Positions 5,393 to 10,433 of a stretch of DNA of 37,936 bases are shown one piece after another; position 1 is the stretch's first letter; every line of letters begins with the position of its first letter. The notes below the pieces were generated by a model, which was not told the DNA's origin, did not search any database, and was given only the letters and a program-made list of their open reading frames with translations. This DNA comes from a virus. Position numbers and translations under genes: made by a program. Location of the stretch: positions 1-37,936 of IMG/VR virus record IMGVR_UViG_3300042540_000975; one strand, written 5' to 3'.

Positions 5393-5892
5393 CGTGTGTT
5401 CTCCTTGTGTCGTTTTTCCCATGAAGAGTAAGCCGCCTCGCGGGAACTCTCCCGCGCCTGCTCGCTCTTTTGAAAGTTGTTGCGCCCCTCCAGCCCTAGC
5501 TTGTCCTGCATTTCCATCACGGCCTTGGATAGCGCTGCCCTTGTGACGCCAATGCGCCGAGCCAGTTCCGAATAAGAATGCGCCAAGGTTATGGACGTGT
5601 CGCCGGCAGCCAGCAGGAAGGCGTAATAACGCAGCGTCTTGTTGCCGCGCGGCTCGTTGAGATAAGTCACCACGGGAATGAGCATCCGAGCCGCCACCTC
5701 TGCCGACTCATGCTTGGTATGCTCGCGCATGAGCAGGATCAGCTTGCCGCATTGCTCGCGGTTCAGCCGCAGCGCCTCGGCCCACTCCTCGGCCTTGGTG
5801 TCGATCTCGCCTGCCATGTCCGGGCGATAGCTGGTTTCCAGCTTGTCTAAAGGGTTTTCGCCCATGCTGGCGAAGCGTCGAATGTCAATCAT
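5389..5892 (-). CDS. Putative HTH DNA-binding regulator, 167 aa
   Basis: The C-terminal half holds a probable helix-turn-helix: SELARRIGVTRAALSKAVMEM, about residues 109-129. It sits after a region on growth in length (residues 65-100, NKTLRYYAFLLAAGD) and before a basic tail. The N-terminal part is helical and acidic. No close family is recognised. The gene is the last regulator-like gene before the cos region and the structural genes, so a late-gene activator is a reasonable guess. It overlaps the downstream gene by 4 nt and the upstream gene by 4 nt. Confidence 0.7.
   Translation of the reverse strand: MIDIRRFASMGENPLDKLETSYRPDMAGEIDTKAEEWAEALRLNREQCGKLILLMREHTKHESAEVAARMLIPVVTYLNEPRGNKTLRYYAFLLAAGDTSITLAHSYSELARRIGVTRAALSKAVMEMQDKLGLEGRNNFQKSEQARESSREAAYSSWEKRHKENTR
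5393..5406 (-). promoter_or_regulatory. RBS with GAACACAC leader
   Basis: AAGGAGAACACACG precedes the ATG at 5392. Nearly the same leader precedes the 67-aa membrane protein at 14522 (AAGGAGAACACACA), and GAACACACAC without the AAGGAG precedes the SSB-like and ERF genes. Confidence 0.7.
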
Positions 5893-6116
5893 AAGCTAAA
5901 TTCCTTCCTCGCTCGCCGTATCTGCTTGGCTCGCAGTTCGGCAAAATGTTTTGCAGCGCCCTTGGCGTCCCTCGCCCCCACAGCAGACCGCCGATGCCAC
6001 TTGCAGCAATAGACGCAAAGGTAAGTCTCTTGCTCTGGGAAATACTTGCTGGCCTTTAAGGCATCAGCCTCCGAGTCGTAAGCCCGCTTCCAAATGCACG
6101 CTTCCCACTTCTTCAC
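5889..6116 (-). CDS. Small zinc-finger-like protein, 75 aa
   Basis: The 75-aa product, read from a GTG at 6116, has a CVYCCKWHRRS motif near residue 34-44 resembling the short phage zinc-knuckle pattern C-x-x-C-x-x-W-H, and a basic C-terminus. The GTG is chosen because it forms a GTGA overlap with the stop of the upstream gene. An in-frame ATG at 6185 would overlap that gene by 73 nt. Role unknown; DNA or RNA binding is likely from the charge. Confidence 0.6.
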   Translation of the reverse strand: MKKWEACIWKRAYDSEADALKASKYFPEQETYLCVYCCKWHRRSAVGARDAKGAAKHFAELRAKQIRRARKEFSL

Positions 6117-6316
6117 GCCGCCCTCCTTGCCTCGTCCCGCGCCCGCAAAGCCCTCTGGTCGCGCTTTTCCAGCCAGCCAATACACTCACCGCCATTGCCC
6201 ACCTCGGCCACGCTGACTGCATTGTCGCTAATGACCCCGTTGTCTTGCAGGAAGTTCATCGTCAGCCGGGCGTCGAGGCCACGGGCGGCGATGTAGGCGC
6301 GGAGGGATTCGCTCAC
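6113..6316 (-). CDS. Hypothetical small protein, 67 aa
   Basis: A 67-aa protein with no recognised domain, containing a hydrophilic N-terminus (MSESLRAYIAARGLDARL) and a Lys/Arg-rich end. It is linked by 4-nt overlaps to the replication gene upstream and the zinc-finger-like gene downstream, which supports it being translated. No function can be assigned. Confidence 0.6.
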   Translation of the reverse strand: MSESLRAYIAARGLDARLTMNFLQDNGVISDNAVSVAEVGNGGECIGWLEKRDQRALRARDEARRAA

Positions 6317-7185
6317 GCCGCCACCTCCACGCCAGCCAACCGCTGCCGCATTTCCGAAATCGACGCCTTCAACGCCTTCACCTTCGCCATCGGCTCGGCC
6401 TTCAAGCGCCTGTCGAACGAGTCAGGGACAGGCTCCTTGTTCGCCGGGTTGGCGCAGATGCGGTCAACTTCCTTCTGCGCGGCTTCGATGCGTTGCTGAA
6501 GCTGCCACACCCCTTCTGGCTTCGGGTTGCCGTTGTGGCCGTTGACCGCCCCGTTGCCGAATTGCTTCGGGTTGCGATTGCTCTGCCACTTGCGCCAAAA
6601 GCCCGACAAGTCATGCGGCATGGATGAAACGCGCCTTCCTTTGCCGTCCAACCATCCCGCGCCCTGACGATCATCGAAGTAAGCCCGGCACACGTCTTCG
6701 GGGATGCTGGCCCGTCTTCCTGCCTCGATTACGACCTCTACAGAGAAAGCCGAAACCATATGGTTAGCATTTGAAACCATATGGTTAGCAAATGGGGTAA
6801 GAGTAAGAGTATGTGTATTATCTTCTGTATTATTAGAGGGGGGTGTGGGGGGAGATTTTGGCCTGCCGCCCCGTTTGCCCGCTTCCCATAGGTGCATGAT
6901 CTGCCTGTTGTGTTCGGCAAAGCCGTGAATGGCCCACGTCCCGCCCTCCTCGGCATCAAGCCAAGGCGCTTCCGCGTCCGTCATGGCCTCCCAGAGCGCG
7001 GAATGGTCGCCCTCGTAGCGCATCATGGCTGCGAGCTTGGCCGGGGCCAACACGAGGCCCGTGTAGCGTCGGCGCACTTGGCAATCGCCCCAGAGGCGAA
7101 GCAAGCCCACCACGGCGGCGGGGCCGCAGCGGTCAATAAGCCGCTCGGTTTTCCAATGCGTTGCAAAGCCGGGGTCGAGTTTCAT
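6313..7185 (-). CDS. Replication initiation protein (replisome organizer-like)
   Basis: This 290-aa protein has an N-terminal domain (residues 1-105) like phage replication initiators: FATHWKTERLIDRCGPAAVV followed by LRLWGDCQVRRRYTG, typical of winged-helix replisome organizers. A low-complexity linker (107-147) includes the tandem heptad ANHMVSN/ANHMVSA, and a C-terminal helical domain contains DLSGFWRKWQSN. The linker DNA carries palindromic iterons and an A/T-rich stretch, as in lambda gene O. No DNA polymerase or helicase gene is present, so the phage must recruit host replication proteins. It overlaps its neighbours by 4 nt on both sides. Confidence 0.75.
   Translation of the reverse strand: MKLDPGFATHWKTERLIDRCGPAAVVGLLRLWGDCQVRRRYTGLVLAPAKLAAMMRYEGDHSALWEAMTDAEAPWLDAEEGGTWAIHGFAEHNRQIMHLWEAGKRGGRPKSPPTPPSNNTEDNTHTLTLTPFANHMVSNANHMVSAFSVEVVIEAGRRASIPEDVCRAYFDDRQGAGWLDGKGRRVSSMPHDLSGFWRKWQSNRNPKQFGNGAVNGHNGNPKPEGVWQLQQRIEAAQKEVDRICANPANKEPVPDSFDRRLKAEPMAKVKALKASISEMRQRLAGVEVAA
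6752..6834. other. Putative replication origin with 21-bp iterons
   Basis: Two 21-bp direct repeats (6752-6772 and 6773-6793) each contain the perfect palindrome AACCATATGGTT (6754-6765 and 6775-6786). They are spaced exactly two helical turns apart. An A/T-rich stretch follows (6794-6834) inside an otherwise GC-rich gene. Location within the initiator gene matches lambdoid origins. The repeats are in the coding frame (seven codons each), so a purely protein-level repeat is the alternative. Confidence 0.55.
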
Positions 7186-7814
7186 AAAATTGCCTCCATT
7201 ACCATTTGCGGTCGCTTGTCTTTGCGGGTCGAAAGGCGCAAATAAGATTCAAGCTCCTCCAAGCGATCCTCGCCCCCGCGCATCCACCCCGTTCCATCGC
7301 ATGACTCGGCCCCAGCATCGTGCGCCATCCACAAAAGGCGCTCGCTATTGACCCGCCCGACATGGACGCGAGGGTGCGCTGCCGTCCACATTTTGAGATT
7401 GCGCCACTTCCACTCGGTCGAGCCGCCCACAAAAATCACATCGGCATCGGTCGGCACATCATCGACAGTCATGCCGTCCTGCACGACAAAAGCCAAAGGC
7501 GCGTTGATGACGCCTCGGATACGCTGCGACCACTCAGGCCAGCGCGCCCTGGTCGCCTTGGCATCGGCCACCACATCGGGAACAGCAACCCACATTGGGC
7601 GAAATTCGCGGCGGGCGCGGTCAAGGAGATCAAGAAAGCCTTGCTCATCCCACTCGCGTTTATTGAGCCACGCGCCGAAAGCGCCATTGTCCAGCGCGTA
7701 GGGCATCCACGACGGGGGCTTGCGCCACCCATAAGGCGAGATTAGCCAGCCCAAGCGCCCCGGATACTTGCCGCACAAGTAGCCGATTTGGATTCCGCTG
7801 TTATTTGAGGGCAT
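7182..7814 (-). CDS. dpdA: TGT-like 7-deazaguanine transglycosylase (DpdA-like)
   Basis: The 210-aa protein resembles the catalytic barrel of tRNA-guanine transglycosylases, in the short form found in phages. ALDNGAFGAW (Asp42) matches the DSGGFQ catalytic motif, FVGGST (128-133) matches the substrate-binding Gly-Gly loop, and GAESCDGTGWMRGG (Asp173) matches the region of the nucleophilic aspartate. The usual zinc-binding C-terminal part of bacterial TGT is missing. DpdA enzymes of some phages and bacteria swap guanine in DNA for preQ0 or a derivative. Placement directly after queC and queD makes DNA, rather than tRNA, the likely target. The ATG at 7814 overlaps queC by 14 nt; an ATG at 7829 is possible. 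A host-like tRNA TGT role cannot be excluded. Confidence 0.75.
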   Translation of the reverse strand: MPSNNSGIQIGYLCGKYPGRLGWLISPYGWRKPPSWMPYALDNGAFGAWLNKREWDEQGFLDLLDRARREFRPMWVAVPDVVADAKATRARWPEWSQRIRGVINAPLAFVVQDGMTVDDVPTDADVIFVGGSTEWKWRNLKMWTAAHPRVHVGRVNSERLLWMAHDAGAESCDGTGWMRGGEDRLEELESYLRLSTRKDKRPQMVMEAIL

Positions 7815-8415
7815 GACCAGCATCGGCAATGGCCTTCAGTCTGACTTGGCACGCACCGCATTGGCCGCACGGCTCCTCGCCGCCCGCGTAGCATGACCAC
7901 GTTTCTTCCAGCGGCACGTTTAGCCGCCACGCAATATCGACCACCTTGGCCTTGGTTCTGACGATGTAGGGCAGATGCACCTCCATTCGCCGCGTGTGAC
8001 AGCACCGCAAAGCAAAATTGAGGTGCTTCATAAAGTCGGCGCGGCAATCGGGATAAACCTCGGCATCGTCGCCATTCACCGCGCAGGATACCGCCGTGCA
8101 GCCATGAGAAAGCGCGTAGCTTGCCGCCATCGCGATCAGGACCATGTTGCGGTTTGGCACTACGGTTGGTTTCCCGACCAACGGTTCGGTTTCTGTGGTC
8201 AGCGCCGGCCGCTCAAATAGCTGCGGCGGCAGGGTAATTTTGTCGTAAGCCACGCCCAGCTTGGCGCAAGTTGCCTCGGCAAACGTCAGTTCTTTGATGT
8301 GCCTCTGTCCGTAGTCGTAGAGCAGGCAATGGGCTTTGTGGCCTTGATGCAGAAGGTCGTAAAGCAGGGTGGTGCTATCCACCCCGCCCGACATGAGATG
8401 AGTGAATTTAGCCAT
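7801..8415 (-). CDS. queC: 7-cyano-7-deazaguanine (preQ0) synthase QueC
   Basis: QueC converts 7-carboxy-7-deazaguanine to preQ0 using ATP and ammonia. The 204-aa protein has the PP-loop SGGVDS (9-14), LYDYGQRH, VVPNRN and NGDDAEVYPDCR signatures. The four-cysteine zinc site is intact (Cys175, and Cys183/186/189 in PCGQCGAC). The length is typical of the family. It follows queD closely (1 nt) and overlaps the DpdA-like gene, so the three form a translational unit. Recognition is strong; all catalytic motifs appear intact. Confidence 0.96.
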   Translation of the reverse strand: MAKFTHLMSGGVDSTTLLYDLLHQGHKAHCLLYDYGQRHIKELTFAEATCAKLGVAYDKITLPPQLFERPALTTETEPLVGKPTVVPNRNMVLIAMAASYALSHGCTAVSCAVNGDDAEVYPDCRADFMKHLNFALRCCHTRRMEVHLPYIVRTKAKVVDIAWRLNVPLEETWSCYAGGEEPCGQCGACQVRLKAIADAGHALK

Positions 8416-8416
8416 A

Positions 8417-8770
8417 TCAGTTCTTGGTCAGAATCACGTTTGAGGTTGGCGTTTCGCGGACTTCGATGCGGGAAAGCAGCGGCAATCGCGGCTGCAATTC
8501 GCGCCAAAGCCACGCGGCAAGGTTTTCGGCAGTGGTCGCGCATGGCAGGATGTCGTTGAGGTTTCGGTGATCGAGGGACGCCACGATCGGCTTTGCCACG
8601 GCGCTGATGTCCGCGTAGTCCTGCACCCATTCGTTAGCGATTGGGCCGCATACGCCGACCAGCACTTCGTAGCTGTGCCCGTGCAGGCGATGGCATTGAT
8701 GGTCTGCCGGGAGATGTGGCAGCGAGTGAGCCGCTTCAAAGCGGTAGGTTTTGGTAATTTCAAAAGTCAT
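8417..8770 (-). CDS. queD: 6-carboxy-tetrahydropterin synthase QueD
   Basis: QueD converts 7,8-dihydroneopterin triphosphate to 6-carboxy-tetrahydropterin, an early step to preQ0. The 117-aa protein keeps the zinc ligands His15, His30 and His32 (AAHSL, HRLHGHSY), the catalytic Cys26, the Asp67-His68 pair in LDHRNLND, and Glu106. The start at 8770 (MTFEITKT) is preferred over an ATG at 8794 because of the family start. It overlaps the end of the methyltransferase gene by 11 nt. No queE or folE is present, so the host must supply those steps. Confidence 0.95.
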   Translation of the reverse strand: MTFEITKTYRFEAAHSLPHLPADHQCHRLHGHSYEVLVGVCGPIANEWVQDYADISAVAKPIVASLDHRNLNDILPCATTAENLAAWLWRELQPRLPLLSRIEVRETPTSNVILTKN

Positions 8771-10433
8771 TGCGGCCCTCCTGTTGGCACACAATCGCCG
8801 TCTGCCCCTCGTCCAAGGTCGTGTTGATCCCTTTGCCCATCCGCGCCGTCAGCGGGTTGGCGAGCGCAGGCGAATATGCGGCCCGTGTAGGCATCTTGGC
8901 CGTTAAGCCCCCCCCCTGGTGCGCGCCGTCTGAGAGGGTTCCGACTACCAAGCGGTCAAGATGCTGGCTGTCGCCGCGATCAAACTTGTTTTGTGCGTCT
9001 ACCGTGCTCACGTCAGCGCACCCCCCCCCGCGACCGCCTCCAGCGCCTCCCGCAGCATCGGCGGCAACTCCTTGCCCCTTTTCTCTGCTCGGCGCAGGAT
9101 TCCGCTGCACGCTTTCTGACTCAAATAGAACCGTTGCGGCAGCGGCCCCGTCTCCAAGACATCCGACAACGAACACACGGCGACTCCGCTGGGCCACTCC
9201 GAACCATTGTGCGTCCAGCACCCGGTAGGCCCACCCATACCCCAGTGCCCCCAACGCCCCAAGGAAGGCTCCAAAATCCCTTCCTCCGTGGGATGACAGG
9301 ACGCCGGGCGCGTTTTCCCAGACAATCCATCGAGGCCGCTGACGTTGAGCGATCTCAAGAAATGTAAGCATGAGTCCACCTCGCGGGTCGTGGAGTCCTT
9401 TGCGGAGGCCGGCGACACTGAAGGATTGGCAAGGCGTTCCTCCGACCAGAAGGTCGATTGCTCCCAAGTTCCAAGATTCATGGCGTGTCATATCCCCCAA
9501 GTTCGGCACCTGCGGCCAGTGATGCGCCAAGACCGCGCTGGGAAACTTCTCCACCTCGGCAAAGGCCGCAGGCTCCCAGCCCAGCGGCTCCCACGCGACC
9601 GAGGCCGCTTCGATCCCACTGCATACGGAGAGGTAGCGCACCTTGCCGTCGTGCTTCGCGGCAATGCGCTTGCCGATCCACGCCATGCACGGCACGGCCA
9701 TGCTGTTGCCCAGCGCCTTGTAGCGCGGCCCATCCGGGCAGTCCTGCGGCGACTTGCCGCGCCACGGGATGAGCGTGTGATCGTCGGGAAATCCCTGCAA
9801 TCGCTCGCACTCTCGCGGGGTGAGTCTGCGGACGGCCATTGCTTGCCTCAGGAATTGGTAGTTGTGCTCGGCTCCAGAGCGCAAAGCCTGTGCCGTTGGG
9901 TTTTCCAGTTGCCCCCCCCCAGATGCCCATTGCACTTGCACGGCTTCCGTTGGAGCTAAAACGCTCGGAACTCCATGCCCTCGCCCCTCCTCGGACGATA
10001 GCGTCGGTGATGTGCCGCCCGTGCCGTGGACGCGAACCCTCTGCGGCAATTCGGGGGTCATGCAGCCCGTTGCCAAGTAGTTCTGTTGCTTCATCCCTGC
10101 CTCGGCTTGCAGAGCTCCAGCGATCTGTCCGTCGCCGTTCATCATCCTGACCTCGTTCCGGGTGTTTTGCTGGAACGCTATTGCCGGAGGATGCGCGGCA
10201 GATGCAAGTGGATGGCATGGCGCACCAGCTCGCGGCACCGAATAGTTGTCGGGGCTGGTTATTTGGGTTGTGTCGAAAGCCACCGCCACCCCATGCGAAA
10301 ACTCCTTTGTGATCGTGTTGGCTGGTTCGCCGGCATTCCCAACACCCAAACCCTGCCTGTTCATCTCGTCCCGCTTCTCTGGGTCGCGCCCAGAGTTGCG
10401 GAGGTCGAGCGGTATTGCCGTGGCGGCGCTCAT
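8760..10433 (-). CDS. Circularly permuted DNA (cytosine-5) methyltransferase
   Basis: The 557-aa protein carries every C5-methyltransferase landmark, but in a rotated order. Motif IX (VRRLTPRECERLQGFPD, 201-217) and motif X (ALGNSMAVP, 240-248) come first. They are followed by motif I (VCSGIEAASVAW, 270-281), motif IV with catalytic Cys335 (GGTPCQSFSVAG), motif VI (WENAPG, 372-377) and motif VIII (AQRSRRVFVVG, 414-424). Normal enzymes run I-VIII, target domain, IX, X. Residues 1-200 and 430-557 look like the two halves of the target-recognition/linker region. Three G9 tracts lie within it. It methylates DNA, probably for protection from host restriction; the target sequence is not known. Confidence 0.92.
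   Translation of the reverse strand: MSAATAIPLDLRNSGRDPEKRDEMNRQGLGVGNAGEPANTITKEFSHGVAVAFDTTQITSPDNYSVPRAGAPCHPLASAAHPPAIAFQQNTRNEVRMMNGDGQIAGALQAEAGMKQQNYLATGCMTPELPQRVRVHGTGGTSPTLSSEEGRGHGVPSVLAPTEAVQVQWASGGGQLENPTAQALRSGAEHNYQFLRQAMAVRRLTPRECERLQGFPDDHTLIPWRGKSPQDCPDGPRYKALGNSMAVPCMAWIGKRIAAKHDGKVRYLSVCSGIEAASVAWEPLGWEPAAFAEVEKFPSAVLAHHWPQVPNLGDMTRHESWNLGAIDLLVGGTPCQSFSVAGLRKGLHDPRGGLMLTFLEIAQRQRPRWIVWENAPGVLSSHGGRDFGAFLGALGALGYGWAYRVLDAQWFGVAQRSRRVFVVGCLGDGAAAATVLFESESVQRNPAPSREKGQGVAADAAGGAGGGRGGGCADVSTVDAQNKFDRGDSQHLDRLVVGTLSDGAHQGGGLTAKMPTRAAYSPALANPLTARMGKGINTTLDEGQTAIVCQQEGRNDF
8908..8916 (-). repeat. G9 homopolymer tract 1 in methyltransferase gene
   Basis: Nine C on the plus strand, nine G on the coding strand, encoding the middle of HQGGGLTAK near residue 508. 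A one-base slip would break the frame close to the end of the protein. Confidence 0.95.
9021..9029 (-). repeat. G9 homopolymer tract 2 in methyltransferase gene
   Basis: Nine coding-strand G within RGGGCADV near residue 470, after motif VIII. A frameshift here would remove only the C-terminal linker half of the protein. Confidence 0.95.
9912..9920 (-). repeat. G9 homopolymer tract 3 in methyltransferase gene
   Basis: Nine coding-strand G within ASGGGQLEN near residue 172-174, before motif IX. A slip here would remove all catalytic motifs, making this the most effective switch of the three. Confidence 0.95.

Follow-up and report, generated by a model that had tools for sequence, protein, structure and literature searches.

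A candidate replication origin of palindromic iterons within the initiator gene of a phage known from sequence alone

The initiator gene and its protein

The window analyzed here is the whole 37,936-nucleotide stretch of IMG/VR record IMGVR_UViG_3300042540_000975, a lone viral contig. The gene that contains the candidate origin lies at 6313–7185 on the minus strand and is an open reading frame for a 290-residue protein, identified as a replication initiator by a match of residues 3–97 to phrog_9474 ("replication initiation protein", E 2.5e-4) and by a fold match to phage replisome organizers. The PHROG scan of the protein returned phrog_9474 only, with no direct O-like match and no sequence homology to lambda O; no relative of the protein was found in the annotated phage genomes searched, a sequence search of solved structures gave no match, and nothing in Pfam matched the N-terminal domain. 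A Pfam match of the C-terminal coiled coil to KIF21A fell under its cut-off and was ignored. The neighboring frames at 5889–6185 and 6113–6316 have no PHROG match. The phage also encodes an integrase, an Erf-like annealing protein, an exonuclease, a resolvase and terminase.

The N-terminal domain (residues 1–111; 6853–7185, minus strand) was modeled by AlphaFold2 with a pLDDT of 87 and a pTM of 0.76, and the order of its helices and strands is that of a winged helix. Foldseek placed "Replisome organizer" at the top of its viral matches (E 6e-6) and also returned "Lin1244/Lin1753-like N-terminal domain" (E 4e-5), while the matches among solved structures were winged-helix regulators of the MarR, GntR and CRP types and were weak (E of at least 0.07). 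The predicted winged-helix fold fits the phage replisome organizer type (Lin1244/Phage_rep_org_N-like), and this domain is the putative iteron-binding part of the protein. A full-length model built from a mixed alignment was poor (pLDDT 63), and the model of the N-terminal domain was used instead. The linker that follows was modeled with very low confidence, with pLDDT below 50 over residues 99–145 or thereabouts and values of 25–40 reported. The C-terminal half (residues ~149–290; 6316–6741, minus strand) is common to genes that carry other N-terminal domains, with 83–93% DNA identity to those of group B described below, and may recruit a helicase or its loader.

Two further regions of the window drew our attention. 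At 8760–10433 (minus strand) lies a gene for a 557-residue C5-type DNA methyltransferase whose match to DNMT C-terminal families (residues ~125–259) precedes its match to the catalytic N-terminal half (residues 264–452), so that the enzyme looks circularly permuted or fused. Between 7182 and 8794, also on the minus strand, are three adjoining genes related to 7-deazaguanine metabolism, namely QueC, QueD/PTPS and one whose product weakly matches queuine tRNA-ribosyltransferase (phrog_887); together they possibly form a DNA base modification pathway.

Palindromic iterons and an AT-rich tract in the linker

The linker between the two domains carries a perfect 12-bp palindrome, AACCATATGGTT, at 6754–6765 and again at 6775–6786, assigned to neither strand and kept as AACCN4GGTT in relatives. 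An exact search found these two copies and no third in the whole window, and both are enclosed by an 18-nucleotide exact direct repeat, GAAACCATATGGTTAGCA, at 6752–6769 and 6773–6790, which confirms the original prediction of a palindrome occurring twice in the initiator gene exactly 21 bp apart. The window has a single instance of the arrangement AACCN4GGTT-N7..11-AACCN4GGTT, and 100 dinucleotide shuffles gave none. The fuller form of the iteron is GAAACC-N4-GGTTTC. A possible degenerate third site, CCCCATTTGCTA on the coding strand (6786–6797, minus strand), lies 11 bp from the proximal iteron and is weak, matching only four of eight consensus positions.

Beside the second palindrome is an AT- and purine-rich tract (GGGTAAGAGTAAGAGTATGTGTATTATC...; 6795–6836, plus strand), a putative unwinding element for comparison with the tract that adjoins the lambda iterons. 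It is 69% AT where the window as a whole is 40%, which places it in the top 0.16% of 42-bp windows, and for AT-richness the 84-bp segment starting at 6752 ranks within the top 0.008% of all 84-bp windows. The tract contains a GTAAGA tandem at 6797–6811; the copy at 6775–6786 is proximal to it and that at 6754–6765 distal. Since the gene runs leftward, within it the tract is on the 5′, N-terminal side of the palindromes. The A/T-rich stretch expected after the palindromes is therefore real, though in gene direction it precedes them, the reverse of lambda O. Beyond the tract, at 6836–6853, the plus strand carries a G run (coding strand CCCCCCACACCCCCC, peptide PPTPP) that is nearly unchanged in most close relatives; it may be part of an origin or only a proline linker.

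Conservation and exchange of the repeats among relatives

Relatives comprised 28 from IMG/VR and more from searches with the N-terminal domain, including Akkermansiaceae metagenome-assembled genomes, whose presence makes a Verrucomicrobiota bacterium the probable host. Genes with this N-terminal domain (group A) number 12 copies in six clusters: the window, L001–L007 and L036–L039. Pairs of AACC-N4-GG(TT) are present in the linker of all 12, in helical phase at 21 bp, as in the window, or at 11 bp. In the window and L005–L007 the sites are 21 bp apart and are read in codon phase 0 as NHMV, NHLV, NQVV or NQMV. In L001–L004 the sites (AACCTAATGGTT) are again 21 bp apart, one base out of phase (phase 1), and are read as KPNG or EPNG; a third site there, CCCCATTAGGTT, matches six of eight consensus positions, lies at exactly 21 bp from its neighboring iteron and is the equivalent of 6786–6797 in the window. 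In L036, L038 and L039 both codon phases occur within a single gene, in two sites that overlap at a spacing of 11 bp. The central four bases of the motif vary (ATAT, ATTT, AAGT, AAAT, TAAT). Across 281 kb of the relatives' DNA there are 18 occurrences of AACCN4GGTT: group A linkers account for 17, the other is elsewhere in L039, and the loci with other N-terminal domains in that DNA have none.

Because one DNA motif is kept in two reading frames, no protein-level constraint accounts for its conservation, and the comparison supports the palindrome, and not the heptad, as the conserved unit; evidence this clear for selection on the DNA itself is unusual. The use of two frames amounts to a clean natural experiment on selection at the DNA versus the protein level, and it is a stronger test of DNA selection than synonymous-codon shuffles, which gave a combined P of 0.01 and a P of 0.18 for the window and are weak taken alone because the linker peptide already fixes much of the motif. 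The original prediction had the heptads ANHMVSN and ANHMVSA selected through DNA function as well as through the protein: the frame change upholds the first part, and the second is unneeded, since the linker is poorly modeled and tolerates both readings. Far from heptads being kept and palindromes lost, the palindromes persist at 21 or 11 bp and the heptads are lost.

Among more distant homologues of the N-terminal domain, L138 carries AACCCATGGGTT and, in several frames, AACCC repeats, after which comes (AAGAG)n; L139–L141, the most distant, have no clear AACC palindromes and show repeats (L139) or purine tracts instead. The repeat of L139, from Verrucomicrobiota, is 21 bp long (AAGGGCGACCGCCAAGCGACC) and recurs 35 bp apart in two linker frames.

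Group B (L008, L009, L016 and others) combines the C-terminal half found in the window with a different N-terminal domain, and its homology to the window ends at 6741. In L009, the segments equivalent to 6313–6741 and 7192–8761 are 91% and 94% identical to the window and the interval between them is non-homologous; homology that ends at 6741 and resumes at 7192 means that only the N-terminal domain and the iterons differ. In L005, the reverse case, homology extends leftward from 7185 as far as 6753, at the edge of the iterons, and the next 209 bp (6544–6752) are replaced. By these homology breaks, with breakpoints 6741 and 6753 at the repeats' edge, recombination is shown to exchange the N-terminal domain together with its repeats, and the exchangeable cassette would span 6742–7191 (minus strand).

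Loci with other N-terminal domains are without AACCN4GGTT, and phased repeats of different sequence occupy their linker in its place. These are GTAACGCTnnnAGCGTTAC and AGCGTTACCAG in group B and copies of AACCCAAGC or repeats of GAAGCACAGCTT in group C; L025, of group C, has four copies of AACCCAAGCAAA, of which three follow one another at 11-bp steps and fall in three frames. Among 80 loci sampled from the wider group B family, 53 have phased GTAAC/GTTAC sites, and likewise 53 have them in at least two frames. The iteron set is fully associated with the type of N-terminal domain across groups A, B and C, and no group carries another's full set, the sole stray being a single GCGTTAC in L039. 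This pattern suggests that the type of N-terminal domain determines the type of iteron. As in lambda, the purine tract of groups B and C follows the iterons on their 3′ side in gene direction. The group A tract lies on the opposite, N-terminal side and has its purines on the complementary strand, so that the origin looks inverted relative to its gene. As a separate observation, the linkers of L041–L120 and of L142 (Rac ydaU), in the widespread replication-initiation family phrog_2509, have GTAAC/GTTAC sites that advance by 14, 11 and 12 bp through several frames, ahead of a purine tract whose translation gives PEKRREEK-like peptides.

The origin reading and comparison with known systems

We consider it highly probable that 6752–6836 is a phage replication origin inside the initiator gene. 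The repeats, their phasing, their conservation in changed frames, their co-segregation with the N-terminal domain and the breakpoints at their edge are observed, and the proposed mechanism predicts what they would serve. Dimers of the winged-helix N-terminal domain would bind the palindromic AACC-N4-GGTT iterons and, with the iterons two helical turns apart, would stack along a single face of the double helix. Together they would melt the adjoining AT/purine tract at 6795–6836, the C-terminal half would bring the replicative helicase, and initiation would take place within the segment. Counted against this reading are the presence of only two good iterons in the window and the fading of AT-richness in L039, which is CT-rich there instead. 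GC skew across the window has no extremum or turning point at 6.75 kb, where the original prediction looked for a peak, and no helicase or helicase loader gene was recognized among the phage genes scanned.

A palindrome to which a dimeric winged-helix protein binds is a typical operator, and the repeats could accordingly be autoregulatory operators bound by the initiator or a phage repressor, with replication starting elsewhere, as the MarR, GntR and CRP regulators among the nearest solved structures might suggest; we regard this as unlikely, since the repeats lie ~400 bp inside the coding region and not at a promoter, every related N-domain group has repeats in the same mid-gene linker with a purine/AT tract beside them, and the family is one of replication initiation proteins and replisome organizers. 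Service in some other DNA transaction, either as recognition sites of the phage cytosine methyltransferase or as a partition or silencing site, would draw on the C5-type enzyme encoded at 8760–10433 and on the CCATATGG contained in the window palindrome, yet it is very improbable given that the four bases at the center are free to vary, conservation is confined to the two linker copies, and the site type follows the initiator's N-terminal domain. That the repeat is merely a duplicated heptad in a flexible linker, with the palindrome as by-product, has in its favor that synonymous shuffles of the window gene with the peptide fixed give a phased pair 18% of the time, but it is the least probable of all and already refuted by relatives that keep the DNA motif while the frame changes the peptide (KPNG/EPNG for NHMV).

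Reading the segment as an origin places a probable origin to within ~85 bp in a phage known from sequence alone, and it suggests a route to origins in uncultured phages through initiator-linker repeats that fall in two or more codon phases and whose type changes along with the N-terminal domain. More tentatively, and at somewhat less than an even chance, in-gene origins may be DNA cassettes able to shift across the reading frame, the iteron being kept while its phase, peptide, number and spacing (in ~10.5-bp steps) change, with the whole origin inverted relative to the gene in this lineage of Verrucomicrobiota phages. If the inversion is true, the direction of the first fork relative to transcription would be reversed with respect to lambda.

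The window N-terminal domain resembles the phrog_2509 and phrog_9474 proteins by its match to the latter, and the group B genes with the window-type C-terminal half match both families strongly. Rac ydaU, whose linker has group B sites, adjoins the dnaC-like ydaV and has a purine/AT tract after its GTAACGCTGCCAGCGTTAC and GCGTTACCAGA; in comparison with the window the iteron sequence is other and the tract is on the opposite side. An active origin, oriJ, has been reported for Rac (PMC3945230). The ydaU linker sites are a candidate location for oriJ on the strength of these repeats, and we found no placement of oriJ within ydaU in the papers available.

In SPP1, oriL within gene 38 similarly has repeats and an AT-rich unwinding region inside the gene of an origin-binding protein (PMC6316719), a likeness of arrangement; SPP1 has in addition a second origin, oriR, and its own loader gp39 and helicase gp40, which were not found in the window phage. 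The closest comparison is with lambda, where four inverted-repeat iterons are followed by a purine/AT tract within O (PMC7466680), an O dimer binds each iteron, and a pair of iterons with the AT-rich tract is the minimum that suffices for unwinding (PMC7466680, PMC6022878). The annotated lambda iterons start at 39034, 39054, 39078 and 39101 (spacings of 20, 24 and 23 bp) and are followed by AAAAGAAAAAAGAAAAGATTATT. As in lambda ori and its Stx-phage relatives, the window has inverted-repeat iterons in the initiator linker beside an AT/purine tract, at 21 bp where lambda has 20–24 bp, and, as a further likeness, iterons and N-terminal domain are exchanged jointly in the family studied; like O, the protein would have an N-terminal DNA-binding and a C-terminal partner-binding domain (PMC7466680, PMC6022878). 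It differs from lambda in having two good iterons and not four, in the iteron itself (AACCN4GGTT as opposed to the CCCTCAAAACGAGGG type), in the absence of a recognized P-type loader, and in an unwinding tract on the N-terminal side, with the origin inverted relative to the gene. The architecture of lambda ori inside O that the original prediction proposed is supported, with its orientation reversed. Some group B relatives have O-like C-terminal halves (phrog_345, phrog_678), and by analogy the window protein would work like O, though it is not filed as an O protein. An origin inside the initiator gene is an arrangement already known from lambda O and SPP1 gene 38, of which the window would be a further case.
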